DNA of 35,093 bases, taken from IMG/VR virus record IMGVR_UViG_3300024229_000018, positions 1 through 35,093 of that record; one strand, 5' to 3'. Source of the stretch: a virus. A program made the translations under genes and the position numbers. Each line of letters opens with the position of its first letter. The first letter of the stretch is position 1. Below are positions 7,437 to 35,093 of the stretch, piece after piece. Under the pieces are notes generated by a model. It did not search any database, was not told the DNA's origin, and worked only from the letters and a program-made list of their open reading frames with translations.

Positions 7437-9118
7437 TACGCTTCTACCTCTATTGCTAATCCGAGCACTGTCATTGGTGTCGGATCTGTTTGGGTGATCG
7501 TGACCTGGGCCAGCTCTGTCCACCCTAATAAATACATTTCTTTCAGCCCTGTGTAAGCTGTTGGTGCGCTATCTAAAGACAAACCAAAGTTACGATCTAT
7601 AAACCGATCTCCATTAATACTTATGCCTAAAGATTCATAAACATTAGGCACAACTTTAACAATTCGTTTTTTCCTGGTCAGTGTTGGCCCATCCTGGAAG
7701 TCCATGTTGATCGGCATTGTTGTAACTGTCGTTGTGTAGTCCAGGCCAACTTCGACATTCGTTGCTGTTTCTGCCAGGGTAATTGATCCAGAACCTGGAG
7801 TAGCGTTTGCTCTAACTTCTCCATCTGCTCTAACGCGAGATTCTTGGCCATTTAGATGAGCTAATCCAGTAACTGCTGTGCCTGGTGATCCTAATACTAC
7901 TGTTTTGTTTGCGTCAGTATAAGTTGAGGAATCGAGTTGCTCCAGGAACCTAACTACTGATCCATTAATTGTTCTTTTAACTACAAAGTAAACATCGTCG
8001 ACTACAACTGCTACTGATTCAATTTCTCCAGATGTAGTCCATTTAGTCCAGCCACTAACTTCTTGAGATCTTAACGTGTTGTAAACACCTACTGTGCCAT
8101 CGCCATTAACGAAATAGACGTAGTTTGCATCATCATTAGCAGTACCCTTTAATACGTCCATATCGACCGGAGCATTAAGCAAATGCGAAGCCAATAATGA
8201 AACAGTGCCAGCTGTATATGAATCTTCATTGTAGGAAAATAAAAACTCTCTGACTGATTTACCTGTGCGATCTACAAAGATAACAGCACCATCAATATTT
8301 TTAGGCGGTACTGCTCCAGATCCAAATAATGTTTCTCTTCTTACTGCACTTTTTGATGGGGTAATAGGAGAGTCTTGCATAGAGAACTCACCACCAGTTG
8401 TAAAGATTTGTAAATGTCGTCCAGAATAAACAGCTGTAATAGCGTTGACTTGATCTGTATCTAATGTGACATCGATTCCTTCATCATCTAAAGAAGTGCC
8501 AACATCAAAATTAAAGAAATCATTTGTTTTAGATCCCCATAAAGTTTGAGGGCGGGAGAGTGATCCACCAAACCATAAACGTCCCTGGAAGAATGTAGCA
8601 CTTTTTGGCCAGCCTTTTGCATTAGACCAGACATCTACATTGCCAGATCCATAATTAAACTGCGGAATATTACTTAAACTAATTGTTGATAGTGTCCAGG
8701 AAGTATGTGATCCACCTCTGACTAATTTTCTTGGCGCATGATCTTTATGGACCAGGATCATTGTGTCCGCTGATTGTGTCCAGGATAATTCAAATAACTG
8801 AGCAGTTGTGTAAGGTGTTGTGACATTTGCCTGGTGAACACCATCTTTATAAACTGCAACACTTAAATTAGTAAACACCATTAAATAAGTTTGCTCTACG
8901 TTAAAAGCAAAAGAAGCTAACCTGGCTTTATTGTTAGACGCTGTATTAGCAATATATTTTAATCCTGGACGACGTTTTATACCGCCTTGTGGCATTGTTA
9001 CTACGTTTTCAGCTACTTCAGCTCCCTGGTAGAAATGTTTTATATCTGTCCTGGACGCGAGTCGAGGATCTAGTACACCAGAAACAAAAGAAGTTTGCAG
9101 CGTAATAACTTTTGCCAT
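7436..9118 (-). CDS. Tail tubular protein B (gp12-like, 560 aa)
   Basis: This protein forms the nozzle of the short tail. The N-terminus is diagnostic for the family: an opening SFVSGVLDPRLASRTD followed by a VTMPQGGIKRRPGLKYI motif near residues 40-57, where the conserved GG.RRRPG-type segment sits. The rest is beta-rich, as expected of the propeller domain. The length is shorter than T7 gp12 (about 790 residues) but common in smaller podoviruses. It overlaps tail tubular A by one base at its start and the gp14-like gene by one base at its end, so the three are likely translated as a coupled set. Confidence 0.9.
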   Translation of the reverse strand: MAKVITLQTSFVSGVLDPRLASRTDIKHFYQGAEVAENVVTMPQGGIKRRPGLKYIANTASNNKARLASFAFNVEQTYLMVFTNLSVAVYKDGVHQANVTTPYTTAQLFELSWTQSADTMILVHKDHAPRKLVRGGSHTSWTLSTISLSNIPQFNYGSGNVDVWSNAKGWPKSATFFQGRLWFGGSLSRPQTLWGSKTNDFFNFDVGTSLDDEGIDVTLDTDQVNAITAVYSGRHLQIFTTGGEFSMQDSPITPSKSAVRRETLFGSGAVPPKNIDGAVIFVDRTGKSVREFLFSYNEDSYTAGTVSLLASHLLNAPVDMDVLKGTANDDANYVYFVNGDGTVGVYNTLRSQEVSGWTKWTTSGEIESVAVVVDDVYFVVKRTINGSVVRFLEQLDSSTYTDANKTVVLGSPGTAVTGLAHLNGQESRVRADGEVRANATPGSGSITLAETATNVEVGLDYTTTVTTMPINMDFQDGPTLTRKKRIVKVVPNVYESLGISINGDRFIDRNFGLSLDSAPTAYTGLKEMYLLGWTELAQVTITQTDPTPMTVLGLAIEVEA

Positions 9119-9669
9119 TACTGTCTAGCCTCAATAAATGGAGAATGGACAATAGCTTTCGTCGGCCTTGATTGTGAATCTGTGAACCTGGCTCTTCTTA
9201 GGTTGTAGTCAAACATGCGACGATACTCTTCAGCTTTGTTAGAGTTGTCAGTGATCGCAATAGCAAAAACTGAAGCAAGAAGGTACTCTAATATTCTTTG
9301 AAAGTATGCGGGCATTTCTGCTTCTGGTGCTTTATAAACATAATCCAGATCAACAGTTTGTGAATTTGTGTACAGCTTATCCTCAAAGATCTCATAGTCC
9401 ATGTTTGGATGAATTGTCGTTGCAATAATATAATCAGCGGGTAACTGGTAAGCATAATCCCAGGTATTAACTGGTTTAGCTGTCAGCTGCGCTAATGTGA
9501 CTTTAGCTGAAGCAAATCTCCAGCGATGTTGTGATAACAGATCTTCATAAGTTGTTTCGTATAAAGCATCTGCAATGTTGGCTCCGGCTCCACCATCTGT
9601 GAAACTAGCGATTGAGCCATGGCCTATCAAATTTAATGCGTTAGAACATATCTCAATTGATGTTGCCAT
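9118..9669 (-). CDS. Tail tubular protein A (gp11-like, 183 aa)
   Basis: This is the adaptor between portal and nozzle. The sequence shows the family signature: an N-terminal ICSNALNLIGHGSI segment, LSQHRWRFASAK near residues 44-55, a YAYQLPADYI motif near 73-82 and a helical C-terminal half. Its length is close to the T7 gp11 family (about 190 residues). It follows the capsid gene after a 65-base gap that holds a terminator-like hairpin, and its stop overlaps the start of tail tubular B. No separate promoter is evident, so expression probably comes from read-through. Confidence 0.9.
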   Translation of the reverse strand: MATSIEICSNALNLIGHGSIASFTDGGAGANIADALYETTYEDLLSQHRWRFASAKVTLAQLTAKPVNTWDYAYQLPADYIIATTIHPNMDYEIFEDKLYTNSQTVDLDYVYKAPEAEMPAYFQRILEYLLASVFAIAITDNSNKAEEYRRMFDYNLRRARFTDSQSRPTKAIVHSPFIEARQ

Positions 9670-13697: not shown

Positions 13698-14136
13698 GAT
13701 GCTCCTTGATTAAATGTTTATACAATTGATTCGCGGTGTATATATGCCAGGTTCTTAAACCGCCAATCCCTAACAAGGCCTTAGTTTGCTCAACACAAGT
13801 GCAAAGTGTTGGCCAGGGATTTCGGATCCTGGTGTTATCACGACGAATATTAACGTGGATTATAACACTACAATTAGTATCGCTGACAACATTTTGTATC
13901 TTATGTTGTGGACCAAAGGGTAAAACGTGGATGTCAGTCCCGCCAAGCCTAGGATTAAAAGAGATCCAATTGAATCCATCCCAACGTACTGCCCACACAT
14001 GACGAATGCCTGGTTTAAGCAATTTGGCAAGTTTCCAGGGCATATCACCATGCTCGAATATAACGTACCATTCAGCAAAGTCATACTTCCAATCTTCGAT
14101 CAGTGAGTGCTTGAGCCAGCTCAAAAGATCTTCCAA
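13657..14136 (-). CDS. Conserved phage protein of unknown function (159 aa), possibly papain-like
   Basis: An N-terminal half has the pattern IRHVWAVRWDGFNWISFNP, and a later segment reads CTCVEQTKALLGI followed by WHIYTANQLYKHLI. The spacing of His (near residue 46) and Cys (near 112) could suit a permuted papain-like amidase, but this is only a guess. The C-terminus is a Ser/Thr tail. It overlaps the terminase end by 16 bases and the next small gene by 41. If enzymatic, it is one of few candidates for peptidoglycan hydrolysis in this genome. Confidence 0.6.
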   Translation of the reverse strand: MEDLLSWLKHSLIEDWKYDFAEWYVIFEHGDMPWKLAKLLKPGIRHVWAVRWDGFNWISFNPRLGGTDIHVLPFGPQHKIQNVVSDTNCSVIIHVNIRRDNTRIRNPWPTLCTCVEQTKALLGIGGLRTWHIYTANQLYKHLIKEHHGKKESSTSTTTS

Positions 14137-15398
14137 TCCTGTTTGAGAACAGCTGGACCATTCATACCTTCATGACGTTTATCAATCCAGGCGACAGCGA
14201 AATATCGGAAGGCATCAGCTCCATGTGAGCTCCAATCATGTAGTGGGCGATCCTTGTAAACTCTTTTGTCCTCGTCATACTCGCAGCGGTAATAACTCAG
14301 AGCTCTGATTCCATCAGCGCAGCGATTCTCATCAAAATAACACCTAGGCAATATTCTCCTGGCAGCTTCTATGCCATCCATGATCGGTAGATTCGGTGTG
14401 ACTCGGAACACAATCCCCATTTGCCTGGCTTGATCCTTTCTTGATTTACCAGTGGTCAGCTCTCGTACTTGAATATCATGAGGGGCCCAGTGATCTCCAA
14501 AGGTGATGCCATGCGTATCTCGAAAGTCATGCAGCCAATTGATGTAATGTTGTAACCCTTCTCCGCTGTTCTCATAGTAACCAACAACTCGCAGCTCAGT
14601 GCCAGCTCTCTGGATCAGCCAGATTGAGGTTGCGTCTGCTATTCCAAGATCCCAGAATGAATGAACCGGCAGCACTGGATCAATTGGAACTTTGGTGATC
14701 CTGTTGTCCTCCCTGGCTGCTTCGATCTGCCTGGCATAATAGGCACCCTTCCTGTTTTCTAGTGGCTCTCCAAGCCAGATATGCTTGTATAGAGCTTTAT
14801 CGACTTTCTCCAGGTGTACCCTTTCCTTCTCCAAAGTTTCTGGAAAAAATGGGTTGTCAACGTAATTGACTTTGACTACGTATGAATCTTCTGGTGGATT
14901 GACTACAAACCTTTGGTAAGTTGGATCCAGCAGATCCTGGGCATTAAACGAGATCCAGATCTCACTGCCTGGAGCTCTTATGGTCGGAATAAGAGTATCG
15001 TAACTGACTGAAGTGATTTTTTCTGCTTCTTCGAGCCATACCACCTGGATTCCTTCCATTGATTTGATCTTGGTGATGTTTGATCTGAGTCCTTCAAAGC
15101 TAAACCTGGATCCATTACGACCAATGATCTGTGTCTTTTGAATGTCAAAGAAATCTTCCAGGCCCATTCGCTCGATCGTATCAGCAAGGAGCAGCAGCAC
15201 TGAGTCATTGATCGACTTCTGGATCTCCCTGGCGCATAAGATCCTGGTCTTTTCTCGGTAAGCTCTCATGATCAAGAGCTGCGCGATCGTCCAGGATTTG
15301 CCAGATCCTCGCCCTCCATGTGCTACTTTGTATCGATGAGGATTTAAGAAGGGTTCAAACTTCTCAGTGATTTGTATGCGGAGCTTCGTCGTCGTCAT
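14121..15398 (-). CDS. terL: Terminase large subunit (425 aa)
   Basis: This is the ATP-driven DNA packaging motor and nuclease. Walker A is GGRGSGKS at residues 28-35, and Walker B is VVWLEEA at 119-125, with the catalytic Glu pair. The C-terminal nuclease shows FWDLGIADATSIWL (Asp 250), HDIQ (Asp 308) and DWSSHGADAFRY (Asp 395), the three acidic positions of the RNase H-like fold. The length fits the family. The start overlaps the zinc-binding small gene by 35 bases. It is unusually dense in GATC (about 25) and CCWGG (about 14) by hand count. Confidence 0.95.
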   Translation of the reverse strand: MTTTKLRIQITEKFEPFLNPHRYKVAHGGRGSGKSWTIAQLLIMRAYREKTRILCAREIQKSINDSVLLLLADTIERMGLEDFFDIQKTQIIGRNGSRFSFEGLRSNITKIKSMEGIQVVWLEEAEKITSVSYDTLIPTIRAPGSEIWISFNAQDLLDPTYQRFVVNPPEDSYVVKVNYVDNPFFPETLEKERVHLEKVDKALYKHIWLGEPLENRKGAYYARQIEAAREDNRITKVPIDPVLPVHSFWDLGIADATSIWLIQRAGTELRVVGYYENSGEGLQHYINWLHDFRDTHGITFGDHWAPHDIQVRELTTGKSRKDQARQMGIVFRVTPNLPIMDGIEAARRILPRCYFDENRCADGIRALSYYRCEYDEDKRVYKDRPLHDWSSHGADAFRYFAVAWIDKRHEGMNGPAVLKQDWKIF

Positions 15399-17214: not shown

Positions 17215-17822
17215 CTCGCGTACTCCTTCAATAATTGATTTCCAGCTCTCTTTGCTACTCCTGGAGATCTTCGCCCGCCTTGATCCTGTTCTTTAGATAA
17301 CCAGGCATTGACAAACTTCTTGATCCCAGTTTTTGTTTTACGTTTCGTAGGATTGCCATCGATCCATCCCACCATATTGCGCAGCTCTTGCTCCACATTA
17401 ACAGCTGGGTAAAGATCTCTATACTTTACGAGATCATCTTCAAAGATTGGAAAGAGGGATTTATCATTGAGCTGCAACCTAATAAAGACATTAGCATTAT
17501 CATTTTCATTAACATTATCATTAACATTTACATTAGGTTCGTTCTTGGTTTCCTTTTGGTTATTTTTAGGTTTCTCTTCGCTTTCTTCTTGCTTTGGCCT
17601 TCCACCTTTATTTCCGTTCTGCCATTTCTTATAGTTGGCTTCGAGCTGCGGTTGGATCAGCTTAAACATTGCAGCTGCCATCGGTCCCATATCAGCATTC
17701 TTATGATCCAAGCCAAACTCAAAGATCGCCCTGTAAAGCTCGAGCTCCTGGTGATCATCCAAAGCTTTAGCAGCTTCATAAAAAGATCTATAGAAAACGA
17801 TCGAATCTCTTTTCGTTTTCAT
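17211..17822 (-). CDS. Replication initiator-like protein with DUF6291 N-terminus (203 aa)
   Basis: Residues 5-75 (SIVFYRSFYEAAKAL to NGNKGGRPK) match the DUF6291 type of phage replication protein. A linker of repeated Asn-Val/Asn-Asp dipeptides follows near 95-112, then a C-terminal part with YPAVNVEQELRNMVGWI and KTGIKKFVNAWLSKEQD, typical of phage replisome organisers. It probably binds the origin and works with the P-like protein. The linker is encoded by eight tandem CATTNN hexamers, which may be part of the origin, as in lambda O. The ATG is one base past the end of the cro-like gene. Confidence 0.7.
   Translation of the reverse strand: MKTKRDSIVFYRSFYEAAKALDDHQELELYRAIFEFGLDHKNADMGPMAAAMFKLIQPQLEANYKKWQNGNKGGRPKQEESEEKPKNNQKETKNEPNVNVNDNVNENDNANVFIRLQLNDKSLFPIFEDDLVKYRDLYPAVNVEQELRNMVGWIDGNPTKRKTKTGIKKFVNAWLSKEQDQGGRRSPGVAKRAGNQLLKEYAR
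17489..17536. repeat. Eight tandem CATTNN hexamers inside the initiator gene (origin candidate)
   Basis: The plus strand reads eight consecutive hexamers beginning CATT: CATTAG, CATTAT, CATTTT, CATTAA, CATTAT, CATTAA, CATTTA, CATTAG. The tract is very AT-rich and encodes the Asn-rich linker of the initiator. Lambdoid phages carry iterons and an AT-rich unwinding region inside the O gene, so this is a plausible origin. A plain low-complexity linker is the alternative. Confidence 0.5.
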
Positions 17823-18058
17823 TAAGCTTCCTCCGGTGGATATATATCTGGCCTGGTGTGATGACGCGCAACTTCTCCGCCAGTAGCTTTCTCCAGGTTA
17901 ATCACATGAATGTCAGCCACTCTCCTCTGTTTATGCGCCCACAATTTCACAAGTGGAGTAGAAACCCCAAGCTCCTGTGCTATACTTCCCCAGATCTCAT
18001 TAAGGGACCTGTAATTGCCGAGTGCTTTTTCTTTTCTTCCGTACTCAATTAATGTCAT
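17822..18058 (-). CDS. Cro/YdaS-like regulator (78 aa)
   Basis: A small helix-turn-helix protein. The ATG at 18058 is preceded by GGGAG; the 20-codon longer frame starting at TTG 18118 would run through the operator and is less likely. The core IAQELGVSTPLVKLWAHKQRRV forms the recognition region, followed by HVINLEKATGGEVARHHTRPDI, the classic C-terminal signature of YdaS/Cro-type phage regulators. It is divergent from the CI-like gene and heads the leftward replication and packaging operon. It probably represses the repressor promoter during lytic growth. Confidence 0.8.
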   Translation of the reverse strand: MTLIEYGRKEKALGNYRSLNEIWGSIAQELGVSTPLVKLWAHKQRRVADIHVINLEKATGGEVARHHTRPDIYPPEEA

Positions 18059-18089
18059 TTTTTCATAATCTCCCAATAAATTGTGACAG

Positions 18090-18118
18090 ATTGTATCATA
18101 TTGCTGATTAAGATACAA
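18090..18118 (-). promoter_or_regulatory. Leftward promoter (PL) for the cro/replication operon
   Basis: On the minus strand TTGTAT (18113-18118) and TACAAT (18090-18095) are spaced by 17 bases, with the -10 matching five of six. The start would lie near 18083, about 25 bases before the cro ATG. Both boxes are inside the two arms of the inverted repeat 18091-18118, so a bound repressor would cover the promoter. Confidence 0.55.
18091..18118. promoter_or_regulatory. Operator candidate O1 (inverted repeat)
   Basis: A perfect seven-base inverted repeat, TTGTATC (18091-18097) and GATACAA (18112-18118), with 14 bases between. It covers the -35 and -10 of the leftward promoter. It is a probable binding site for the CI-like repressor and/or the Cro-like protein. 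Confidence 0.6.
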
Positions 18119-18194: not shown

Positions 18195-18593
18195 ATGGGA
18201 ACATGGATTTCGAGAGCAAAAAGAGTTATGACTGAGAAGAATTTAACTCAAACTGATATTGCACCTTCTATGGGAAAAAATACTCGCGGAGCGATTGGTC
18301 ATTATTTCACTGGACGATCAAAACCAACATTGGATCAACTAGAAGGATTAGCTAAATTCCTTGGTGTATCACTGAGCTGGCTGGTTTCTGATCATGGAGA
18401 AAATACAGCAGTTGATGACGACACTTTGGAAGAATGTTTAAAGCTTGTTGAAGAAGCTGAAGAAGAAGCTGGGATTGAATTATCACCAAAGCAAGCTGCA
18501 AAAATGACAACCTATTTATATCGAGCTGCAAAAGATGGACAAGAGATCAACAACAAACGCGCAGCTGAATTAATAACATTAGTAACATCTTAA
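18195..18593 (+). CDS. CI-like repressor, XRE HTH without peptidase domain (132 aa)
   Basis: Residues 4-62 form an XRE-type helix-turn-helix: RAKRVMTEKNLTQTDIA, then the recognition region GAIGHYFTGRSKPTLDQLEGLAKFLGVSLSWLV. The remaining 65 residues are acidic and helical. There is no S24/LexA-like Ser-Lys peptidase, so it cannot be inactivated by RecA-stimulated self-cleavage. The ATG follows GGAG at eight bases. It is divergent from the cro-like gene and is the only recognisable maintenance repressor here, so I infer lysogeny control. Confidence 0.85.
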   Translation: MGTWISRAKRVMTEKNLTQTDIAPSMGKNTRGAIGHYFTGRSKPTLDQLEGLAKFLGVSLSWLVSDHGENTAVDDDTLEECLKLVEEAEEEAGIELSPKQAAKMTTYLYRAAKDGQEINNKRAAELITLVTS

Positions 18594-23532: not shown

Positions 23533-23552
23533 GATTCCGGCTCCGGGCACCA
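23533..23552 (+). other. attP core with tRNA 3'-end identity
   Basis: The 20 bases GATTCCGGCTCCGGGCACCA read as the end of a bacterial tRNA: T-loop end, T-stem, acceptor strand TCCGGGC, discriminator A and CCA. The acceptor strand matches tRNA-Phe best; tRNA-Leu is an alternative. No tRNA 5' part precedes it, so it is not a gene. It lies between excisionase and integrase and is the likely crossover site, restoring the host tRNA after integration. Confidence 0.75.
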
Positions 23553-23706: not shown

Positions 23707-24867
23707 ATGCTAACAGATCGTTTTATTAAATCAGTAAAACCTGGTGAAAAAGAAAAATTTATTGCAGACTATAATGGCTTATATTTAAGGATTGGTCCTA
23801 CTCAAGAAGGTGGTGGAAAAACCTGGAGATTTCTTTATACTTCACCAGGATCTAAATACCCAGTTAAAAAAAGCCTGGGTAAATATGATCATGTTAGTTT
23901 AGTTGATGCCAGGGATATAGCTCGCGATTATAAAAAACAACTGGCCCTGGGTATAGATCCATTTAGAAAGAAAGCAAAAGAATTAACAGCTGCTTCTGAT
24001 TTTATTGAAGCCTATGCTGAATTAAAAGGTTTAAATAAAACTACAAAAGCTTATGATGATGTAGTTAGGAACATAGGATATTTAGTTGATAATCTAGGAG
24101 ATCATCCACCACATGATTATTCTAAAGTAGAGATCAATAGTTTTATTAGAGATCGTTTAAGATCTGTCAAGACAACTTCTGTGCGTCGAGAATTAAATTC
24201 AATTTGTGCTGTTTTTAATCTAGTTTATGAAGAACATGAGATTGATCACTTCCATCGTTTCCGAAAATTAAACATACCAAACTTTGGATTAGATAGTGAA
24301 GAGCGTGAAGATTTTACTTCTGATCAATTAAATTTTTTGAGAGATGTTGTTGGAGGATCTGATAACAAAACAGAACAGATCATAGGTTTATTAATTGATA
24401 CTGGCATGAGATCTTCTGAAGCAGTAGGATTAGCTTCTCGGGATATAAACCTGGGACGAATACCTCATGTTGTTTTACATAAGAATCCTATGCGTAGGCT
24501 AAAGAATAGAAGCTCTCAAAGGATCATTCCCCTGGTCGGATCTTCACTATCCGCTGCTCAATGTTTAGATCTTACAGAAGAGTGGGTTTTTCCAAGATGG
24601 TTAAAAAAAGATCGTAGTAAAGATACTGCTAATGCAAATGTAAATAATAGAATTCATAGAATACTTGGGCCAGGATCTCCAACGTCACATTCCTTTCGGC
24701 ATACTCTAGCTACCAGGTTAAGATCAGTTGAATGTCCGGAGTACATGAGAAAAGAATTAGGTGGTTGGGCCAGTTCTGTTTCAGAGTCTTATGGTACACC
24801 AACAGACATAACTAACAAAGCTGCTTATATTGAGAAGTCCCTGGACTGGGTTACTGAGATCTTATAA
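23707..24867 (+). CDS. int: Tyrosine recombinase / integrase (386 aa)
   Basis: This enzyme integrates and excises the phage at a tRNA. Residues 1-80 form the N-terminal arm-binding domain typical of P4-type integrases (LTDRFIKSVKPGEKEKF, then DYNGLYLRIG and GKTWRFLYTSPG). The catalytic set is visible: Arg 235 in TGMRSSEAVGL, HSFRH with His 328 and Arg 331, and Tyr 362 in SESYGT after GGW. The length is normal. The start lacks a clear Shine-Dalgarno and lies just after the right arm repeats. The gene converges with the phosphoesterase and overlaps its end by 17 bases. Confidence 0.93.
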   Translation: MLTDRFIKSVKPGEKEKFIADYNGLYLRIGPTQEGGGKTWRFLYTSPGSKYPVKKSLGKYDHVSLVDARDIARDYKKQLALGIDPFRKKAKELTAASDFIEAYAELKGLNKTTKAYDDVVRNIGYLVDNLGDHPPHDYSKVEINSFIRDRLRSVKTTSVRRELNSICAVFNLVYEEHEIDHFHRFRKLNIPNFGLDSEEREDFTSDQLNFLRDVVGGSDNKTEQIIGLLIDTGMRSSEAVGLASRDINLGRIPHVVLHKNPMRRLKNRSSQRIIPLVGSSLSAAQCLDLTEEWVFPRWLKKDRSKDTANANVNNRIHRILGPGSPTSHSFRHTLATRLRSVECPEYMRKELGGWASSVSESYGTPTDITNKAAYIEKSLDWVTEIL

Positions 24868-27090: not shown

Positions 27091-27320
27091 TAGGCTTCTA
27101 CTTTAGCTGCCTTTAATTCATCAGTAGTAGTCATACTATCTACTTGCTTTGTAATATCTCTGAGCCTTTGTTTCTCTGTCACAATAGCTGAAGTTGATGT
27201 ACCAGCTTCTTGTGCCTTCATAAAGAGAATGTCTTGTTCCTCTAACAGAGGTTTTCTGTCTGCTCTAAGTCTGTCTTTAGTAATGACTTTGGCTTTAGCT
27301 ATATCTACAGTTATAGGCAT
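27090..27320 (-). CDS. Small helical protein (76 aa)
   Basis: A charged, wholly helical product: ITVDIAKAKVITKDRLRADRK, then LLEEQDILFMKAQEAGTSTSAI and a C-terminal helix (RLRDITKQVDSM). Similar small proteins lie at the end of fibre clusters in other phages and may be fibre assembly or scaffolding helpers. No firm family. It overlaps the genes on both sides by one base (TAATG). Confidence 0.6.
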   Translation of the reverse strand: MPITVDIAKAKVITKDRLRADRKPLLEEQDILFMKAQEAGTSTSAIVTEKQRLRDITKQVDSMTTTDELKAAKVEA

Positions 27321-27598
27321 TATTTATTCTCCTTCATATTGTATTTAGCTAAGTCCTCTGCACTCAAGTCTGCTGAAGTCTTTTCATCAGAACCAGCAGT
27401 ATATGTCCAAGCATTTCTAAAAGACCTGTCAGATAAGTCAACTGAGTCAGCTATGATTTCGTACTTAGTGCCAGTAGGTAAATCTTTGTTAGCTATGTGT
27501 ATTATCTTTTCTTCATCTGTACCTGTTAGCTGTGCTAAAAATTTAGGAGCTGGTGTTAATACTTGAGCCACTCCACCATTGTCATATATTAATCTCAT
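27320..27598 (-). CDS. Hypothetical protein in fibre cluster (92 aa)
   Basis: ATG 27598 follows TTGGAG at six bases and lies one base after the upstream stop; a TTG four codons earlier is less likely. The product opens with MRLIYDNGGVAQVLTPAPKF and includes LPTGTKYEIIADSVDLSDRSFRNAWTYT, a pattern reminiscent of small fibre-associated proteins. No catalytic or membrane features. The role is unknown. Confidence 0.6.
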   Translation of the reverse strand: MRLIYDNGGVAQVLTPAPKFLAQLTGTDEEKIIHIANKDLPTGTKYEIIADSVDLSDRSFRNAWTYTAGSDEKTSADLSAEDLAKYNMKENK

Positions 27599-27599
27599 A

Positions 27600-28427
27600 T
27601 TAATCTCCAAAAACTATTAAAGTGTTTTCACTTCTGTCTACATAACCCGCATTTCCGTTTTTAGCAGTAGCAACTTTAACACGTCCTGTTTCTAAATTAG
27701 CTGTGCTGCTATCAGCAAAATACATAACTGCACCATAATAACCATCTTGAGTCATTCCACTTACAGCATAATTAGCGTTAGCCATAGCGTTAGAAAAATT
27801 TACCCAAAACTGACCAGTACCACTATCAGTAAGACTAGACACATTATGAGAATCGTTAATAGCTGCTGTACCAGTACCATTAAAATTACACCAAGCCTTT
27901 GCAGTAAACTGTGACAAGCCTCTGCCATCGTTTGTAATATTTAAAGCAGTAGTCCAAGTAATCGCTGAATCTGCTGAACCTGAAGATGCTACTTTAAATT
28001 GATGAGTGCCACCTTCTTGAGAATAATCTGTAGCATAAGACGATTCCATATATTTATAATTCTCACTTACATCAATCATCTTAGCGTTGTTTGAAAGATG
28101 TGTTTGATTTGAATACCCATAAACAGCACCTCTGTTGCCAGATTGTATAACTTTAGGATACCAATCAGTTTCAGGAGTTACACCGAAACCTACATTTTCA
28201 TTTGAATCAATTGTTATAGCAGTAGCATCAGCATTGTCATCAATACCTGTCGAGGTAAAGTTAGGTATCGTACCTGTCAGCTTGGTTGCATCAATCGTAG
28301 TAGAAGTAAACGCACCAGCAGAACTGATACTCGCTTTCTCTACTCCGTTGGCTTGGAACTTTATGTCTTTAGAAGAACCATCAGCGTTTAGTGTTAGATG
28401 TTCGTCACTTGATTTTATTGTACTCAT
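27600..28427 (-). CDS. Fibre/receptor-binding-type protein (275 aa)
   Basis: The N-terminal 60 residues have the fibre-repeat pattern HLTLNADGSSKDIKFQANGV and KASISSAGAFTSTTIDATKL. A central part (about 75-200) is rich in Tyr, Ser and Gly, and the C-terminal 85 residues (SLTDSGTGQFWVNFSNAMAN, then YAVSGMTQDGYYG, ending TLIVFGD) look like a compact beta domain used at fibre tips. It probably binds the host surface. It overlaps the preceding gene by four bases (ATGA). G+C and word use differ from the head genes. Confidence 0.65.
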   Translation of the reverse strand: MSTIKSSDEHLTLNADGSSKDIKFQANGVEKASISSAGAFTSTTIDATKLTGTIPNFTSTGIDDNADATAITIDSNENVGFGVTPETDWYPKVIQSGNRGAVYGYSNQTHLSNNAKMIDVSENYKYMESSYATDYSQEGGTHQFKVASSGSADSAITWTTALNITNDGRGLSQFTAKAWCNFNGTGTAAINDSHNVSSLTDSGTGQFWVNFSNAMANANYAVSGMTQDGYYGAVMYFADSSTANLETGRVKVATAKNGNAGYVDRSENTLIVFGD

Positions 28428-28969
28428 CTTAATAATGCTCCCGAAAAGTGAATTAATTTAGTTGTTGTTCCTGAAGCAGTTTCAGTATAAGAACCTAACC
28501 AAAGATTATCTCCAGCATTTAAATTAAGAATTATTGTTCCTGTATTGTGTACTTGGGAATTTACATTACTTCTCGTACCACCAGTACCACTCATCTTATA
28601 CATCGTATCGTGTGTTCCTGAGTATGTACCCCCTTCACGATATAATTGACCAACGACTTCATTGAAAGTAGTGTAATTGTTTGCAACTGTACTAAAGTCA
28701 TTCATAATTAAAGCAGTAATTAAATAAAGTCCAGCTTCAGATACTTTTATATAACCACTTGAGCCAGCAGTAACTGTAATTCCTGAACCAGCATAATAAT
28801 TTCCTGTAGGTGCAGTAATACTTAATTTGTTTGGTGGCCAACTTTGTGAACCAGTTTGTGTTGGGCCTTCTAAATACCAAGAAGAATTATTTGTGCTAAT
28901 ATCAGCAGAAGTAATTGTTCCGTCTTGTATTTTGTTGACTCCAGTTGAGCCACTAATCTCTGTTGGCAT
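28424..28969 (-). CDS. C1q/TNF-like fibre-tip protein (181 aa)
   Basis: A short stem, GVNKIQDGTITSADIS, is followed by a jelly-roll-like domain: GLYLITALIMNDF (about residues 81-93) and IILNLNAGDNLWLGSYTE, ending FSGALLR. The last part matches the C1q-type signature (GDxLWL and a final FSG-LL), a fold common on trimeric phage fibre tips. It is likely a receptor-binding subunit. The motif IxDGTITSADI is shared with the 84-residue protein at 30319. Confidence 0.65.
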   Translation of the reverse strand: MPTEISGSTGVNKIQDGTITSADISTNNSSWYLEGPTQTGSQSWPPNKLSITAPTGNYYAGSGITVTAGSSGYIKVSEAGLYLITALIMNDFSTVANNYTTFNEVVGQLYREGGTYSGTHDTMYKMSGTGGTRSNVNSQVHNTGTIILNLNAGDNLWLGSYTETASGTTTKLIHFSGALLR

Positions 28970-28979
28970 TTACTACTCC

Positions 28980-29297
28980 TTATGGTTTAGGATTGGCATC
29001 CTTGACAGCTTTAATTGCTTTGTGCCACTCACCTGTTGCATCTAACTTACCAGCAGTCATATCGTGGTACAGTTGGTCTAACTGCTCCTTGATTTCTGCA
29101 TAAGCTGTTGCCCTTGTTCTTTGGTATGCGTTACCATCATAGACACCTTGCAGTCTTGTAACCTCTGCGTCTATTTCGCTCTGTGTGGGTTCAGTTTGTT
29201 TACTGTCCAACCACTCTAATTCGTCACCTCTCAATACCCATTCAGCGTTTGGCTTTAGGGATTGTAGGGCATCGACTGTTGTCATCTCATTTGCCAT
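28980..29297 (-). CDS. Fibre-associated small protein, paralog 1 (105 aa)
   Basis: The central part ATRLQ-like (EVTRLQGVYDGNAYQRTRAT) and the end AIKAVKDANPKP match the 99-residue protein at 30584 (EVTRLQAVYDSQEYARKRKA and AILAIKSEFPKP). The middle, IKEQLDQLYHDMTAGKLDATGEWHKA, is a pattern common in phage tail-fibre neighbours, thought to be assembly helpers. N-terminal 35 residues hold a small WVLRGDELEWLD motif. It follows the 170-residue fibre-tip gene. Confidence 0.65.
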   Translation of the reverse strand: MANEMTTVDALQSLKPNAEWVLRGDELEWLDSKQTEPTQSEIDAEVTRLQGVYDGNAYQRTRATAYAEIKEQLDQLYHDMTAGKLDATGEWHKAIKAVKDANPKP

Positions 29298-29327
29298 TTC
29301 TTACTCCTGTTAAAATTAAATTAAAAA

Positions 29328-29840
29328 TCATCCCGCTATCTCCATTAATACAAGTTGGGTTTTTTCGCCATCACTATTCATCTTAATTAAGTTACCACCA
29401 TAAGAAGAAGCCTGAAGTTTATAAGTAGTAGCAGATGTTGTTGATGGACTGTCTATATACGAAATGTTATGTGATGAATGAATTTCTCCAGCATTAGCAT
29501 AGTATTGAGAATAATTACTATTAGATGTCCATACAGCTGTAGAACCTCTAACAAGTTTTGTTCCAAAACCAGAGCCAGCAATTGAAGTTCTAGCGTGCGC
29601 TCTCCACATAACAAAAATTTTACTTGCTGTAGATGATGGTGTAATTGTTGCGCTATGACCTATATCAGTATATGTGGCAGTAGATAAATTTGTTTGGGTT
29701 GAATGTTCTGAAATAACAACTTGCAACACAGCACCAGTAGGCATACTCGCACTTGTCATTCCCGATAGCTGATTCTGTAAGGCTATAGTGCCTGAACCAT
29801 CTGCGGTTTCTAATTGGTCTACTTTAATTTTTGATGCCAT
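29328..29840 (-). CDS. Fibre-tip protein, paralog of 29840 and 30885 genes (170 aa)
   Basis: An N-terminal stem (KIKVDQLETADGSGTIALQN) is followed by the shared tip domain: VLQVVISEHSTQT, then SATITPSSTASKIFVMW, a central LVRGSTAVW, then SYIDSPSTTSATTYKLQ and the end LVLMEIAG. The same blocks in the same order occur in the genes at 29840 and 30885. The variable parts between blocks are probably surface loops. It may act as a receptor-binding subunit. Confidence 0.7.
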   Translation of the reverse strand: MASKIKVDQLETADGSGTIALQNQLSGMTSASMPTGAVLQVVISEHSTQTNLSTATYTDIGHSATITPSSTASKIFVMWRAHARTSIAGSGFGTKLVRGSTAVWTSNSNYSQYYANAGEIHSSHNISYIDSPSTTSATTYKLQASSYGGNLIKMNSDGEKTQLVLMEIAG

Positions 29841-30319
29841 TAGCCAGCTACCTCCATAAGTGTTATAAACGCATCAGAACCGCCCCACCCAACAAACACA
29901 GAACCAGCAGCACCTGTTTTCATTTGTGTTTTATAGGTAGTTGCTGATGTAGTGCTTGGTGAATCTAAATAAGAACAGCTACAAGAGCCTACTTGATTGT
30001 CGCCCGATGCGTTGTCATAAGCAGCCATAGTTTCAAAATTACTTATGACTGTAGAACCACGCAATAAATTTAACATTAGTCTAGAGTTACCACTTTGTTT
30101 GCCACATCCAGTATGTATTACATTAACAAGTATTTTGTTAGAAGATGAGGTTGGTGTTATTGAAGCTGTTAATCCAGTATCTGCCCAAGTAGATGTTGAA
30201 TTGCTATGTGTTCCTGAACTAACATATTTAACATTAACAACTTGTACTATATGACCAGCAGGCATTTGCAAATCATAACCAGTTGGTGCTTGTATTGCTT
30301 TGACTTCTAATGTACTCAT
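29840..30319 (-). CDS. Fibre-tip protein, paralog of 29328 and 30885 genes (159 aa)
   Basis: A short stem (STLEVKAIQAPTGYDLQMPAG) precedes the shared domain: IVQVVNVKYVSSG, TASITPTSSSNKILVNV, LLRGSTVI, SYLDSPSTTSATTYKTQ and a final ITLMEVAG. Conserved blocks are the framework, while the segments around residues 75-110 differ most between paralogs. One-base overlaps (TAATG) join it to both neighbours. Confidence 0.7.
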   Translation of the reverse strand: MSTLEVKAIQAPTGYDLQMPAGHIVQVVNVKYVSSGTHSNSTSTWADTGLTASITPTSSSNKILVNVIHTGCGKQSGNSRLMLNLLRGSTVISNFETMAAYDNASGDNQVGSCSCSYLDSPSTTSATTYKTQMKTGAAGSVFVGWGGSDAFITLMEVAG

Positions 30320-30573
30320 TACACTACGCTCCAGTTTCCGTTGACTGTGACTGTGTAGCCATCAGCAATTGTTATAGGCCCCGCGCTCATCCCATTAGAT
30401 GTACTAGGAATGGTTATATTCTCAGATATTGTTTGGGCATTGGTTCTGATCACACTCGAAGCTCCTAGACTTGGGCCACCTAACTCTACTGCTGAGTTAA
30501 TGTCACTAGCAGTAATTGTGTTGTCTAGTATTTCGTTTGTGGTAATTCCACCGCCACTAATTGTTATTGCCAT
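30319..30573 (-). CDS. Short fibre-stem protein (84 aa)
   Basis: The product resembles a fragment of a marine-type tail fibre: TISGGGITTNEILDNTITAS at the start and NGMSAGPITIADGYTVTVNG with a terminal WSVV. The last block recurs at the C-terminus of the 555-residue fibre (NALTAGPITINSGVSVTIPT, then WIVA), so the two share a terminal module. It may be a trimer-capping peptide. Confidence 0.6.
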   Translation of the reverse strand: MAITISGGGITTNEILDNTITASDINSAVELGGPSLGASSVIRTNAQTISENITIPSTSNGMSAGPITIADGYTVTVNGNWSVV

Positions 30574-30583
30574 CTAGTTACTC

Positions 30584-30883
30584 CTATGGTTTTGGAAACT
30601 CAGACTTAATTGCTAATATGGCATCCTTGTGTGTAGTCGTGCCATTAATAGAATCATCGCTGATTAATTCAAATTGATTTAACGCATCGTATTTAGCTTT
30701 GCGTTTTCTTGCGTATTCTTGGGAGTCATAGACTGCTTGGAGTCTAGTTACTTCTGCTGAAATTAAAGATTGATTTAATACAACTGTATTGCCTTTTTCA
30801 TCCCACGCTTTTAGTGGTGAAGAATGAGAAATAGTAGTAACTGTTGAATGTGTGTTTCTTATTGCTAAATCTTTATCTACCAT
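30584..30883 (-). CDS. Fibre-associated small protein, paralog 2 (99 aa)
   Basis: Paralog of the 105-residue protein at 28980: shared EVTRLQAVYDSQEYARKRKA and a common ending (KDAILAIKSEFPKP). The N-terminal 35 residues differ (AIRNTHSTVTTISHSSPLKA). It lies directly after the 235-residue fibre-tip gene, as the other copy lies after the 170-residue one, so the pair seems to be duplicated as a unit. Confidence 0.65.
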   Translation of the reverse strand: MVDKDLAIRNTHSTVTTISHSSPLKAWDEKGNTVVLNQSLISAEVTRLQAVYDSQEYARKRKAKYDALNQFELISDDSINGTTTHKDAILAIKSEFPKP

Positions 30884-30884
30884 A

Positions 30885-31592
30885 TTATGCTCCTATTTCC
30901 ATTAAAACTAAAGATGAAACCATATTAGAGTCCATAACCTTGCAAGTTCCATAAGTTGCTTTAAATTTAAAAGAATAAGTTAAACTTGATGTAGAGTTAG
31001 GGCTATCAAGATATGTTATATGTGCTGGATTTCTATCATCAGAAGAACCCGATTGATAAGCTAAATGATTAACTGACAAACCCCAAGCCTGTCCACCTAA
31101 ATTAGTACCATCTCTATCTATTCCCATAAAACAAAAAACATTCTGAACATTAATCCAAGTTTGTGTGCTTAATATACAAAGAATTTTGCTTGATGTTGAT
31201 GAAGGCGTTATTGCAACTGATAAATCTGTCGATTGCCAACTTGTTGCATTTGTTGAATATTGAGTGGTAGATGTATCTTGAACAACTTGCAACACTTTTC
31301 CACCACTCGGTAAGTTGGTAAGATTAGCACCACTAATAGCTGGTAATGTTCCAGTAATGTTAGCTGCTGGAATAGCTGTTAAATTAGCTGCACTTGCTGC
31401 TGGTAATGTAGCTGGGAATCTAGCATCTGCAATTGTGCCTGTTAGATTAGCTGCTGGTACGCTAGAGTTCTCATCTAACAAAGTACCTGTTGTGTCAGGT
31501 AGTGTTATCGTTCTGTCTGTACTCGTATTCGGAGCAGTTACAGTTAGTACCCCTGTGCCTGATGCGTGACCTTGTATTTTTACTTTACTCAT
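30885..31592 (-). CDS. Fibre-tip protein with repeated stem (235 aa)
   Basis: The stem is a typical marine-phage fibre repeat: TGVLTVTAPNTSTDRTITLP, then three imperfect AANLTGTIADARF/AANLTAIPAANITG/GANLTNLP units (residues 48-95). The tip domain matches the other two paralogs: VLQVVQDTSTTQYS, SVAITPSSTSSKILCIL, TYLDSPNSTSSLTYSFK and LVLMEIGA at the end. It lies eight bases after the 555-residue fibre gene and may attach to its C-terminus. Confidence 0.7.
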   Translation of the reverse strand: MSKVKIQGHASGTGVLTVTAPNTSTDRTITLPDTTGTLLDENSSVPAANLTGTIADARFPATLPAASAANLTAIPAANITGTLPAISGANLTNLPSGGKVLQVVQDTSTTQYSTNATSWQSTDLSVAITPSSTSSKILCILSTQTWINVQNVFCFMGIDRDGTNLGGQAWGLSVNHLAYQSGSSDDRNPAHITYLDSPNSTSSLTYSFKFKATYGTCKVMDSNMVSSLVLMEIGA

Positions 31593-31599
31593 AATTCTC

Positions 31600-33267
31600 C
31601 TATGCTACTATCCAAGTTGAACCCGTTGGAATCGTAACTGAAACCCCTGAGTTAATCGTTATCGGCCCAGCAGTCAAAGCGTTGTTGCCACTTGTTATGC
31701 TATAGTTAGCTGATATGGTATGTGCGTGTTCGTATAGACCTTTGTCTGTCGTATTACCACCGCCTACTGGACTCCAAGCTGAACCATCGTAAATTTCAGC
31801 GCTAGTGTCTGTTGTGTTGAATCTCATAAAACCAGCAGAAGGTGAGCCATCTCTTTGTGCTGTTGTTCCAGCTGGTAAGACTCCAGAGCCTGTGTTTGAT
31901 GTTTTGCTAACTACTGTTGCTGGATCTAAAGCAACATCTGACCAGGAGGATCCAGAATAAACTCTCATTCTGTTCGTGCTGGTGTTGTAATACATATCGC
32001 CAGCAGTTAAAGCATCGCCATCATTATCTACTGTAGGATCAGAACTCTTTGCTCCAAGATAGCTATCATCAAATGCGTCTGCGGAAGCTGCTGCTGCTGC
32101 TGCCGAAGCTGCTGCTGCTGTAGCGCTTGAAGCTGAATTTGTTGCCTGGGTAGTAGCTGTCGTTGCCTGGGTAGTAGCGGTTGATGCTGAAGTAGAAGCT
32201 GACGTTGCGGATCCCGCTGCTGCTGTAGCAGAGGAAGCTGCTGCTGTCGCTGAACTGGCAGCATTAGTTGCTGAAGTTGAAGCTTCTGAAGCTTTTGTTG
32301 TTGCTGTTGATGCACTTGTTGAAGCAGAGGTAGCACTTGTAGCTGCTGCGTTTTTAGATACTAGAGCTGCTGCTTCTGATGCTTCTGCATTTGTTTCAGC
32401 TGTTTCAGCATTTGTTTCGGCTGTTTCTGCTGCTGTCTTGGCAGTTTCCGCAGCTGTCTTAGCAGTTTCGGCTGCTGTTTTTGCTGTATCAGCTCCAGTT
32501 TTAGATGTGGCTGCTGCGGTTGCTGAACTGGCTGCTGCTGTGGCTGAGTTTGCAGCTGCTGTCGCACTGGCTGCTGCTGCCGATGCAGATGTCGCTGCTG
32601 CTGCTGAATCTATTAATAGGGCCCAATTACCATAACCAGCATTTGAAGTTAGTGGTTGTGATCCAGCTGCTGTATGAGCAGTTAAACAAATATAAACATT
32701 TGAATTTGATGTGTCTTTAACTAGATCACGAACAACGTATGCTGTTCCAGCTGCCCAGTTTCCTCTCCAAACTCCAAGCTCCTGGGTAATTGTAGGATCA
32801 CATGTAGAAGAAAATGATAAAACTTTGTTGGCACGATCAGTATCACTTTCTGTAAATTCAGATAATGGAATGCCAGTTGTGAATTGACCAAATCTTAATA
32901 CTCTATTGTTAAGATCATATTCAACTTGCTGGATCATCATTGCTAATTTATCCAGATCGTCGTTTAATGTTTCAGCTCTAAAGGTTCCACCAGTTTGATA
33001 ATCTGAGCTTCTAGCTACTGGAAGATCTCTATAGATTGTTACAATTTCTCCAGCTGAAGCGCCAGATCCTAATACAACATTTCCGCCAGAGCTCGTTCCA
33101 GCTCCAGTAACTGTGTAATGAGTTGTTAATGTTTTAAGGGTTGATCCTATATAAACTTTTAGATCTGTATTTGCAAATATTGGAAACGCATAAGCAAATG
33201 TAGTTTGGCCAGCACTAGCGGTGTACTGAACGCGTGGTGTAATATCACCGACTGTTAATGTTGCCAT
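31600..33267 (-). CDS. Tail fibre with T7 gp17-like N-terminus (555 aa)
   Basis: Residues 1-155 are the T7-type tail-fibre anchor that attaches to the tail (TPRVQYTASAGQTTFAYAFP, then LPVARSSDYQTGGTFRAETLN and DKLAMMIQQVEYDLNNRVLR). Residues 166-219 resemble a chitin-binding-like module (WRGNWAAGTAYVVRDLV, YICLTAHTA, NWALL). Residues 221-398 are an Ala/Ser/Thr-rich heptad-like rod. Two short repeats (MRVYSGSSWSDV and AEIYDGSAWSPV) and a terminal AGPITI module follow. The last 107 codons lack the GATC/CCWGG words that the rest of the gene contains, so the 3' end seems to be replaced. It starts directly after the ejection-protein stop. Confidence 0.88.
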   Translation of the reverse strand: MATLTVGDITPRVQYTASAGQTTFAYAFPIFANTDLKVYIGSTLKTLTTHYTVTGAGTSSGGNVVLGSGASAGEIVTIYRDLPVARSSDYQTGGTFRAETLNDDLDKLAMMIQQVEYDLNNRVLRFGQFTTGIPLSEFTESDTDRANKVLSFSSTCDPTITQELGVWRGNWAAGTAYVVRDLVKDTSNSNVYICLTAHTAAGSQPLTSNAGYGNWALLIDSAAAATSASAAAASATAAANSATAAASSATAAATSKTGADTAKTAAETAKTAAETAKTAAETAETNAETAETNAEASEAAALVSKNAAATSATSASTSASTATTKASEASTSATNAASSATAAASSATAAAGSATSASTSASTATTQATTATTQATNSASSATAAAASAAAAAASADAFDDSYLGAKSSDPTVDNDGDALTAGDMYYNTSTNRMRVYSGSSWSDVALDPATVVSKTSNTGSGVLPAGTTAQRDGSPSAGFMRFNTTDTSAEIYDGSAWSPVGGGNTTDKGLYEHAHTISANYSITSGNNALTAGPITINSGVSVTIPTGSTWIVA

Positions 33268-35093
33268 TTAAAATACTCCTGTTTCTGACATATCAATTGA
33301 TTCTGTTGGAGCAGAAGATCCAGGCTTCCACCAATAAGATTGACCATATTCTGTTTTTCTTTTATTAACATCTCTTCTAAATTTTTCATACGCTTTTGGA
33401 TCCAACATCTTCTGTAATTGATCTAAAATTGTTCGTTCAAATATGCCTCTAATGTACCAAGTTGAACTGCCAGGTGTATAACGTCGTAGGAATTGTATCA
33501 TATCAGCGCTAAGATTTGTATCTTTCCCGGCAGTTAATTGATCCACATTTCCTTTAGTTATATCCCATATATCATTACCTAAACCCCATACTGGTCCAGC
33601 AAGGCTTTCCATGAATGATTGACCAAATCTATTTGTTTCGGCAAATAAAAAATCTCCAAAGATTCCAGTACCACCACCTTGTAAAAAAGCAGCTTTCCAA
33701 AAATTAGGATCATTCATATCTCTTGGGTTTCTGCCTTTTGCAATGTCTTTAGCCTGGAGAGCTATAGCACCAAAGACTGTTAAACCTATAGTTAGTTGAG
33801 CAATATAGTTTATTTTGTTAGCTGTTCCTTCTAAAGCAGCTCCTCTGTATAGCTGTTTCATAATCATTAAGATAGGAAATGATTTGTACATTGCTGCAAA
33901 CCTTATAATTTCTCCAGTACCACCTCTTCTAGTACCCATAGTAGCTATTGCTTCTGATCTAAAATCTGGCATCAATACAGCATGATCTATTTCACCTAAA
34001 GTCATTTCTTGTACTTTGCCGATCAAAGCATTTTTTTGATTTGTTGGCAAATCAGATCTTTCCAGGAATTTTTCTATTGACCAATACTTAGCTCCTTTGT
34101 GTTCAATAGCTTTAGTCTTTCTTAATATTTCCCATTCTTCTGGAGAAATGTTGTATCTTTTTAATGCTTGTTGTCTAAGTTTTGGAAGATCTTTAAAAGC
34201 TTTTGCAGAGTCTTTTGCAAGTTGTGAGAAATGTGCCATTCCAAAACCTTTTCGTAAAGCATCTGTCCAGGGAGAAAGCAATGAAGCTCTCATAGTGGCA
34301 TCAGCAGCTTTAGCTGCAAAATCAGCTCCAGTGATCTCTGTAAATCTATTTGCTGCTAATGCACGAGTTGTCCAGGCTTCTGCAACTAATCCCATCTCAA
34401 CTGCAAAAATTCTATCTTCTTTATTAGCTGGATTAAATTGACGCAGCGCTTCTTTAAATACTTTCATAGAAGGTATGCCATTAATCTTTGCAGTCATTCT
34501 AGCTATCCAAGGATCATTTAATGACGATAAGAAAGCACCACCTAATTGTGCTGCAACTAATAAACTCCTGGTTGTTCTTGAAAAATCAGCAACAGTAGTC
34601 ATAACTGCGTTATTAACTTTGCCAGAAGCTACATTCCAAATCGCATCTAACTGAGCTAATCTAACGTCGTTAGCTCCTTTCTTTTTTGACATGCTTCTTA
34701 AATATTCATAACTTGCTTGAGGATTAGGCCCTAAGATCTCCATCATTGCAATTTCATGACTCATGTTTGATAAATGATCATTCATTGTTGTATAAAGATC
34801 TGGACGACCAAATTGATCATTAAGATCTAACCAGTCATCTACGTCTTTAAAAATTAAAACTCTGTGTTCCTGGTGTCTGTTAGCCATCTTAGTTCCACCT
34901 CTAGCTCCAGGCTCTAAGCTTGCTAATCCATCCGTAGTAATGTCATCATAAGCTCTTTCAAGTAAAATTCTTAATTCCAGGTTGTTCATTGGAATACCAA
35001 GATGATTTATCATTCTGTCACGATCTAATTTAGATCCAAATTTGTCAACAAAATCTTCTTTAGATATTCTTTTTACTAACTTTGGATCCCACC
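33268..35093 (-). CDS. Internal virion/ejection protein, C-terminal part (copy B, open at the window end)
   Basis: The frame is open to the right edge; the first Met inside the window (35013) is internal, as copy A at 1-1701 shows the true start. The part from 33987 down to 33268 completes the 806-residue protein. It contains a hydrophobic segment, YIAQLTIGLTVFGAIALQ, about 190 codons from the end, and ends with a short acidic tail (ESIDMSETGVF). Over the overlapping region it differs from copy A in about seven residues (for example Asp/Asn, Phe/Tyr, Lys/Asp), all conservative or surface-like. Role inferred from gene order, as a DNA-ejection protein. Confidence 0.75.
   Translation of the reverse strand, partial: WDPKLVKRISKEDFVDKFGSKLDRDRMINHLGIPMNNLELRILLERAYDDITTDGLASLEPGARGGTKMANRHQEHRVLIFKDVDDWLDLNDQFGRPDLYTTMNDHLSNMSHEIAMMEILGPNPQASYEYLRSMSKKKGANDVRLAQLDAIWNVASGKVNNAVMTTVADFSRTTRSLLVAAQLGGAFLSSLNDPWIARMTAKINGIPSMKVFKEALRQFNPANKEDRIFAVEMGLVAEAWTTRALAANRFTEITGADFAAKAADATMRASLLSPWTDALRKGFGMAHFSQLAKDSAKAFKDLPKLRQQALKRYNISPEEWEILRKTKAIEHKGAKYWSIEKFLERSDLPTNQKNALIGKVQEMTLGEIDHAVLMPDFRSEAIATMGTRRGGTGEIIRFAAMYKSFPILMIMKQLYRGAALEGTANKINYIAQLTIGLTVFGAIALQAKDIAKGRNPRDMNDPNFWKAAFLQGGGTGIFGDFLFAETNRFGQSFMESLAGPVWGLGNDIWDITKGNVDQLTAGKDTNLSADMIQFLRRYTPGSSTWYIRGIFERTILDQLQKMLDPKAYEKFRRDVNKRKTEYGQSYWWKPGSSAPTESIDMSETGVF
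33988..35093. repeat. Terminal overlap, copy B (diverged allele of 1-1106)
   Basis: Counterpart of 1-1106 with about 5% substitutions, no indels, and identical flanks of 126 and 127 bases. It shows that at least two co-existing strains contributed to the assembly. Confidence 0.9.

Follow-up and report, generated by a model that had tools for sequence, protein, structure and literature searches.

GATC and CCWGG are over-represented throughout the core of a temperate phage genome and across its clade

The stretch of DNA analysed here, which we call the window, comprises positions 1–35,093 of IMG/VR record IMGVR_UViG_3300024229_000018, a phage contig with a GC content of 39%. A terminal direct repeat, in which positions 1–1106 are identical to positions 33988–35093, marks the contig as circular or terminally redundant; this repeat is to be counted once, and because of it the segment 1–1740 is not independent of the window's end. 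Profile scans revealed podovirus-like genes for a T7-type capsid assembly protein, a head-tail adaptor and a terminase, with the terminase large subunit encoded at 14121–15398 on the minus strand (phrog_3717, 1.8e-68). The gene set is temperate, with a tyrosine integrase (23707–24867, plus strand; phrog_1, 2.9e-39), a CI/Cro-like repressor recognized by profile match (18195–18593, plus strand) and RecE/RecT-type recombination; a YdaS-like protein is encoded at 17822–18118, divergent from the repressor gene. The putative attP core, GATTCCGGCTCCGGGCACCA (23533–23552, plus strand), consists of 20 bases that match the 3′ end of tRNA-Leu(TAA) genes exactly, and an 18-mer of it was present in 11 of 369 gammaproteobacterial genomes, every time inside tRNA-Leu(TAA); the 3′ end of this tRNA gene is the likely integration site of the phage. 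Known phages gave no DNA match to positions 1–25000 of the window.

GATC and CCWGG are the classic targets of Dam and Dcm methylation. An earlier note on this DNA had called attention to their abundance in the terminase gene, and its counts there were exact, at 25 GATC (one per 51 bases) and 14 CCWGG (one per 91), as was its count of nine CCWGG in 8461–9120; in 1–1740 we likewise recovered its nine CCWGG, together with 18 GATC where it had given 19. The over-representation is real and larger than that note had described, extending genome-wide rather than being local to the terminase: the whole window contains 336 GATC and 173 CCWGG, alongside 73 GTAC and 9 CCSGG. We compared these counts with codon-preserving shuffles, in which synonymous codons were permuted within each gene so that protein and codon usage stayed fixed. 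Over the whole window GATC reached an observed/expected ratio of 1.84 (z 17) and CCWGG one of 2.98 (z 23); no other 4-mer and no other 5-mer, respectively, stood higher, and the excess is thus independent of codon usage. Next came AGCT and GCWGC, both at 1.33, while AGATCT stood at 3.0; the control words GTAC and CCSGG were not enriched, with codon-corrected ratios of 0.76 and about 0.57. Neither of the outcomes that the earlier note had named as refuting its claim, ratios near one after correction or an equal excess of such unrelated words, was obtained. The gene at 31600–33267 is rich in Ala/Thr/Ser coil, and GCTGCTGC-type repeats there inflate the GCWGC counts.

For the terminase gene alone the shuffles predicted 12.9 GATC and 3.6 CCWGG, and the observed values were reached in 0 of 2000 shuffles. 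This gene is typical of the genome core (1107–27100), where word counts and shuffles indicate enrichment of both words in the majority of genes and in intergenic DNA. For GATC every codon frame shows an excess (1.5, 1.9 and 2.9), as do two of the three for CCWGG (6.3 and 5.7), its frame 0 being at just 1.17-fold; outside the genes there are 29 GATC against 13 expected and 15 CCWGG against 2.6 expected. The sites follow a nearly random distribution, in which GATC has a density of about one per 90 bases, and we could not detect any spacing, phasing or longer consensus around them in the window.

The core ends in a sharp compositional break at about 27.1–31.6 kb, which corresponds to a tail-fibre module (about 27100–31600) with almost no GATC or CCWGG. 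Enrichment resumes over 31600–35093, where observed and expected counts for individual genes are 15 and 8.4 GATC at 31600–33267 and 10 and 3.2 CCWGG at 33268–35013. Viral contigs carrying relatives of the window gene 27600–28427 are often devoid of both words: in 15 such contigs, picked out of 44 loci for lacking GATC and CCWGG and totalling 147 kb, where 650 GATC and 151 CCAGG would be expected, we counted none of either, and the median over all 44 loci was 0.47 for GATC and 0.18 for CCAGG. The word profile of the tail region is closer to these purging phages than to the window core (correlation 0.57 versus 0.25), and the module was probably imported recently from phages that had purged both words. 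Similar tail genes also occur in Pelagibacter phages, and a common tail module is no proof of a common host.

Conservation of the sites was compared between the window and a near-complete relative (G005) that is 83% identical over 23.8 kb. CCAGG ranked first of about 317 5-mers, with 91 sites kept against 46 expected, and GATC ranked 1–2 of about 130 4-mers, with 188 kept against 125 expected; these ranks hold in both directions and relative to the codon-position expectation, and at wobble positions only, GATC still ranked 1–2 and CCAGG 13th and 6th. This conservation fits either selection or a directed repair bias, without telling them apart. Among IMG/VR relatives of the terminase and capsid, the excess characterizes one old phage clade of GC 39–55%, known mostly from seawater, in which both words occur at two to five times expectation. 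Relatives near the window have GATC at about 2.2–2.9 and CCWGG at about 3–5.5, a GC-55 subclade has CCWGG at 5 and weaker GATC at 1.7, and a ‘plume’ subclade, labelled after what we take to be the origin of its samples, has a GATC excess without much CCWGG. Parsimony on the capsid tree gives three changes per word. Ratios are neutral or low in relatives that fall outside the clade, and the excess is absent both from lambda (GATC 0.59, CCWGG 0.86) and from the Methylophilales phage MEP301 (0.99 and 0.55), which has a capsid related at 42%. C5-cytosine methyltransferase genes are present in L181, L182 and L183 (the records of L033, L029 and L036), which are relatives in the subclade without much CCWGG enrichment.

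Many other short words are purged from the window, including GCAGG (0/36, observed/expected), GAGAC (0/24), GCSGC (0/24), CTGCAG (0/32) and GATATC (0/20), and within 1107–27100 also TCAGG, ACGG, AGCCC, GGCGT and many 6-base palindromes that do not contain GATC or AGCT. The purging of recognition-like words, as in restriction-site avoidance, therefore applies to words other than GATC and CCWGG. The list of purged words varies among subclades of relatives, as if each had met different restriction systems.

In the window, in G005 and in the scanned records of the window clade we found no match to PF00145 or PF02086 that would indicate a Dam- or Dcm-family methyltransferase; other methyltransferase families were sought through Pfam and PHROGs scans of the predicted proteins. 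Our searches for the host returned no close candidate: the terminase search of genome contigs gave only a contig from a Methylophaga-labelled MAG at 76% (GC 58%) and remote matches, the integrase search in the 369 gammaproteobacterial genomes gave no close relative, and the attP 18-mer led to tRNA-Leu(TAA) and to no single host, with no matching bias in the sampled genomes that carry it.

CCWGG enrichment goes with integrase carriage, an association that we treat as a lead. In a tally of those records of at least 20 kb that could be classed, 8 of 10 CCWGG-enriched records carried an integrase versus 1 of 13 others, with two shorter records (G438 and G439, 11 and 14 kb) counted among the eight; tested as 8/10 versus 1/11, the association gave p 0.002, uncorrected for kinship among records that are related and in some cases incomplete. 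The tally agrees with a report that site elimination is weaker in temperate than in non-temperate phages, which was ascribed to methyltransferases (PMC6286503). Several marine phage contigs (L287, L299, L303, L307, L310 and others) have zero GATC and zero CCWGG, and no integrase was found in the examined contigs of this kind of 40–46 kb. Four contigs with an integrase in their record (L212, L217, L219 and L286) have GATC ratios of 0–0.7 together with CCWGG ratios of 3–4, so that the two words can be decoupled.

The earlier note had offered several interpretations, which are partly supported: indirect evidence favours a link to the host or to methylation. Dam and Dcm classically act on these two words, their sites persist between diverged relatives in a temperate lineage, and precisely these words have been purged to zero by other marine phages. 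Specifically, we tentatively propose, as a plausible account that we would stop short of calling probable, that constitutive methylation of both words by the host is what keeps GATC and CCWGG in the genomes of this lineage. Such a host would methylate GATC (Dam-like m6A) and CCWGG (Dcm-like m5C) with enzymes neither of which, as far as we found, the phage encodes, and restriction in the host population would remove most other short words from the phage. The two words, always methylated in progeny and prophage, would be safe and could be kept and accumulated, either through selection for methylated phage DNA or through a repair bias that is coupled to methylation and operates in the prophage, along the lines proposed for HIP. 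This account needs the further assumption of a positive benefit or a repair bias, because the absence of restriction pressure alone predicts neutrality rather than excess. Inference enters with the methylation, with who the host is and with the gain to the phage. The differences among subclades, with the plume group having little CCWGG and the GC-55 group weaker GATC, count against host methylation as the explanation. A test for deamination of methylated CCWGG found an excess of C>T at position 2 in the window clade and none in the GC-55 clade, and transitions in CAG/CTG codons could produce a similar asymmetry.

The main rival is a plain host imprint, an inherited bias of the kind that the note had also offered: the host chromosome would show an equal excess for unrelated reasons, and the prophage would have come by drift to share the chromosome's word composition. 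The temperate lifestyle is in keeping with this, as are two small, low-GC gammaproteobacterial genomes (G069 and G359) whose GATC ratios of around 1.7–2.3 are close to those of the plume subclade. These genomes (L141, L170 and L171; L144, L172 and L173) are 1.3–1.4 Mb in size with a GC content of 41–45%, and their CCWGG ratios are mostly near or below 1. In sampled gammaproteobacterial stretches GATC is otherwise mostly at 1–1.6, with 2.3 reached in the two small genomes. Against the imprint, the density of the joint pattern peaks at about 417/Mb among the 369 gammaproteobacterial genomes, compared with 627/Mb in the window, the sampled genomes above 250/Mb have a GC content of about 57% or more, save for one sampled stretch, and CCWGG is at 2.6 or less in sampled gammaproteobacterial chromosomes compared with 4.8 in the window at GC 39%; this comparison covers gammaproteobacterial genomes only, and the true host may lie outside it. 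On balance we consider the imprint unlikely, if still a serious contender. We are considerably more sceptical that the words are intrinsic to the phage, serving as sites for packaging, recombination, replication or a phage DNA-binding protein, and regard this as improbable: the sites are conserved beyond expectation, but a packaging or recombination word, as the earlier note had also suggested, fits poorly with near-random scatter at about one GATC per 90 bases and no phasing, regular spacing or extended consensus, it would be a coincidence for two unrelated palindromes each to be a classic methyltransferase target, and the tail module manages without either word. The note's further suggestion of strand marking for mismatch repair would leave CCWGG unexplained.

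Two further explanations fare worse. Dcm and Vsr co-occur in enterics, and very short patch repair could convert CTWGG to CCWGG, with a similar bias acting on GATC; CTAG is indeed somewhat low in the window. However, CTWGG is undepleted (CTAGG 17/19, 0.89; CTTGG 53/47, 1.12), on which ground we rejected Vsr repair, among single changes of CCWGG between relatives the inner C>T that Vsr would suppress is the most frequent, and the mechanism is silent on GATC, all of which makes such a mutational bias very improbable. Still less credible, if only slightly so, is a by-product of avoidance, in which codons that would create neighbouring words like GCAGG and TCAGG are shunned and the synonymous alternatives yield CCAGG and GATC instead. 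Both of these position-1 neighbours are purged in the window, but when shuffles were barred from 28 of the purged words, with a stringency beyond that seen in the phage, CCWGG rose only from 49 to 64, against 150 observed, and GATC from 164 to 186, against 294 observed, and in the GC-55 clade CCAGG is at 5.5-fold while GCAGG and TCAGG are at 1.06 and 0.87. The excess is thus independent of neighbouring words, and the constrained shuffles and the GC-55 values led us to reject displacement.

Reportedly, Deschavanne and Radman found GATC to be counter-selected in enterobacterial phages by methyl-directed mismatch repair, which concerns one of our two words and host machinery like that in our preferred account of host methylation, but acts in the opposite direction to what we see in the window. 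phiX174 is devoid of GATC (PMC5014478), and the CB of GATC is below 1 in 46 of 46 phages whose hosts encode a Type IIM GATC enzyme (PMC6286503). The window and its relatives resemble published cases of restriction-site avoidance (PMC6286503) in purging many other words, and phages with related tails purge GATC and CCWGG to zero, yet in the window these two words lie above expectation. A modified word in excess is also known from Helicobacter genomes with a CCGG restriction-modification system, where the authors tentatively put the excess of CCGG down to a benefit of methylation; unlike the window, that case concerns one word in a bacterial chromosome, with a Kr of around 1.4–1.5 (PMC4687349). 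Over-represented palindromes accompany orphan methyltransferases in cyanobacteria (PMC4390886), and the words of the window are similar to HIP1 of cyanobacterial chromosomes (GCGATCGC; PMC4390886) in that they are short methyltransferase-target palindromes, far above the expectation from composition and codon usage, conserved in a way that indicates maintenance, and built on a unit that contains or is GATC. They differ in residing in a phage, in being two separate short words rather than one 8-bp unit, in their density of about one per 90–170 bases rather than about one per 1000, and in that the responsible methyltransferases are putative, with none for either word found in the window or G005. 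The phage words could act like HIP only through the host, and we do not class them as HIP, to which they appear akin in kind.

Searches of the open-access literature turned up no description of a phage in which GATC and CCWGG are both enriched, and phage word statistics have so far been read almost entirely as avoidance. Our analysis suggests that host DNA methylation can make GATC and CCWGG worth keeping for a phage. A stronger and rather doubtful reading is that marine phages split into hoarders and purgers of these two host-methylated words, and that the temperate lineage actively builds up its stock of Dam and Dcm sites as dense methylation benefits its DNA, possibly as a label of self or as a block to overlapping nucleases; hoarding would then be the positive counterpart of restriction-site avoidance. 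A clade that holds both words, set against phages with related tails that delete them, provides a natural contrast for asking whether methylation is beneficial or merely tolerated. The finding is also relevant to the unsolved question of how HIP palindromes arose, and word profiles that trace the methyltransferases of the host would help host prediction.
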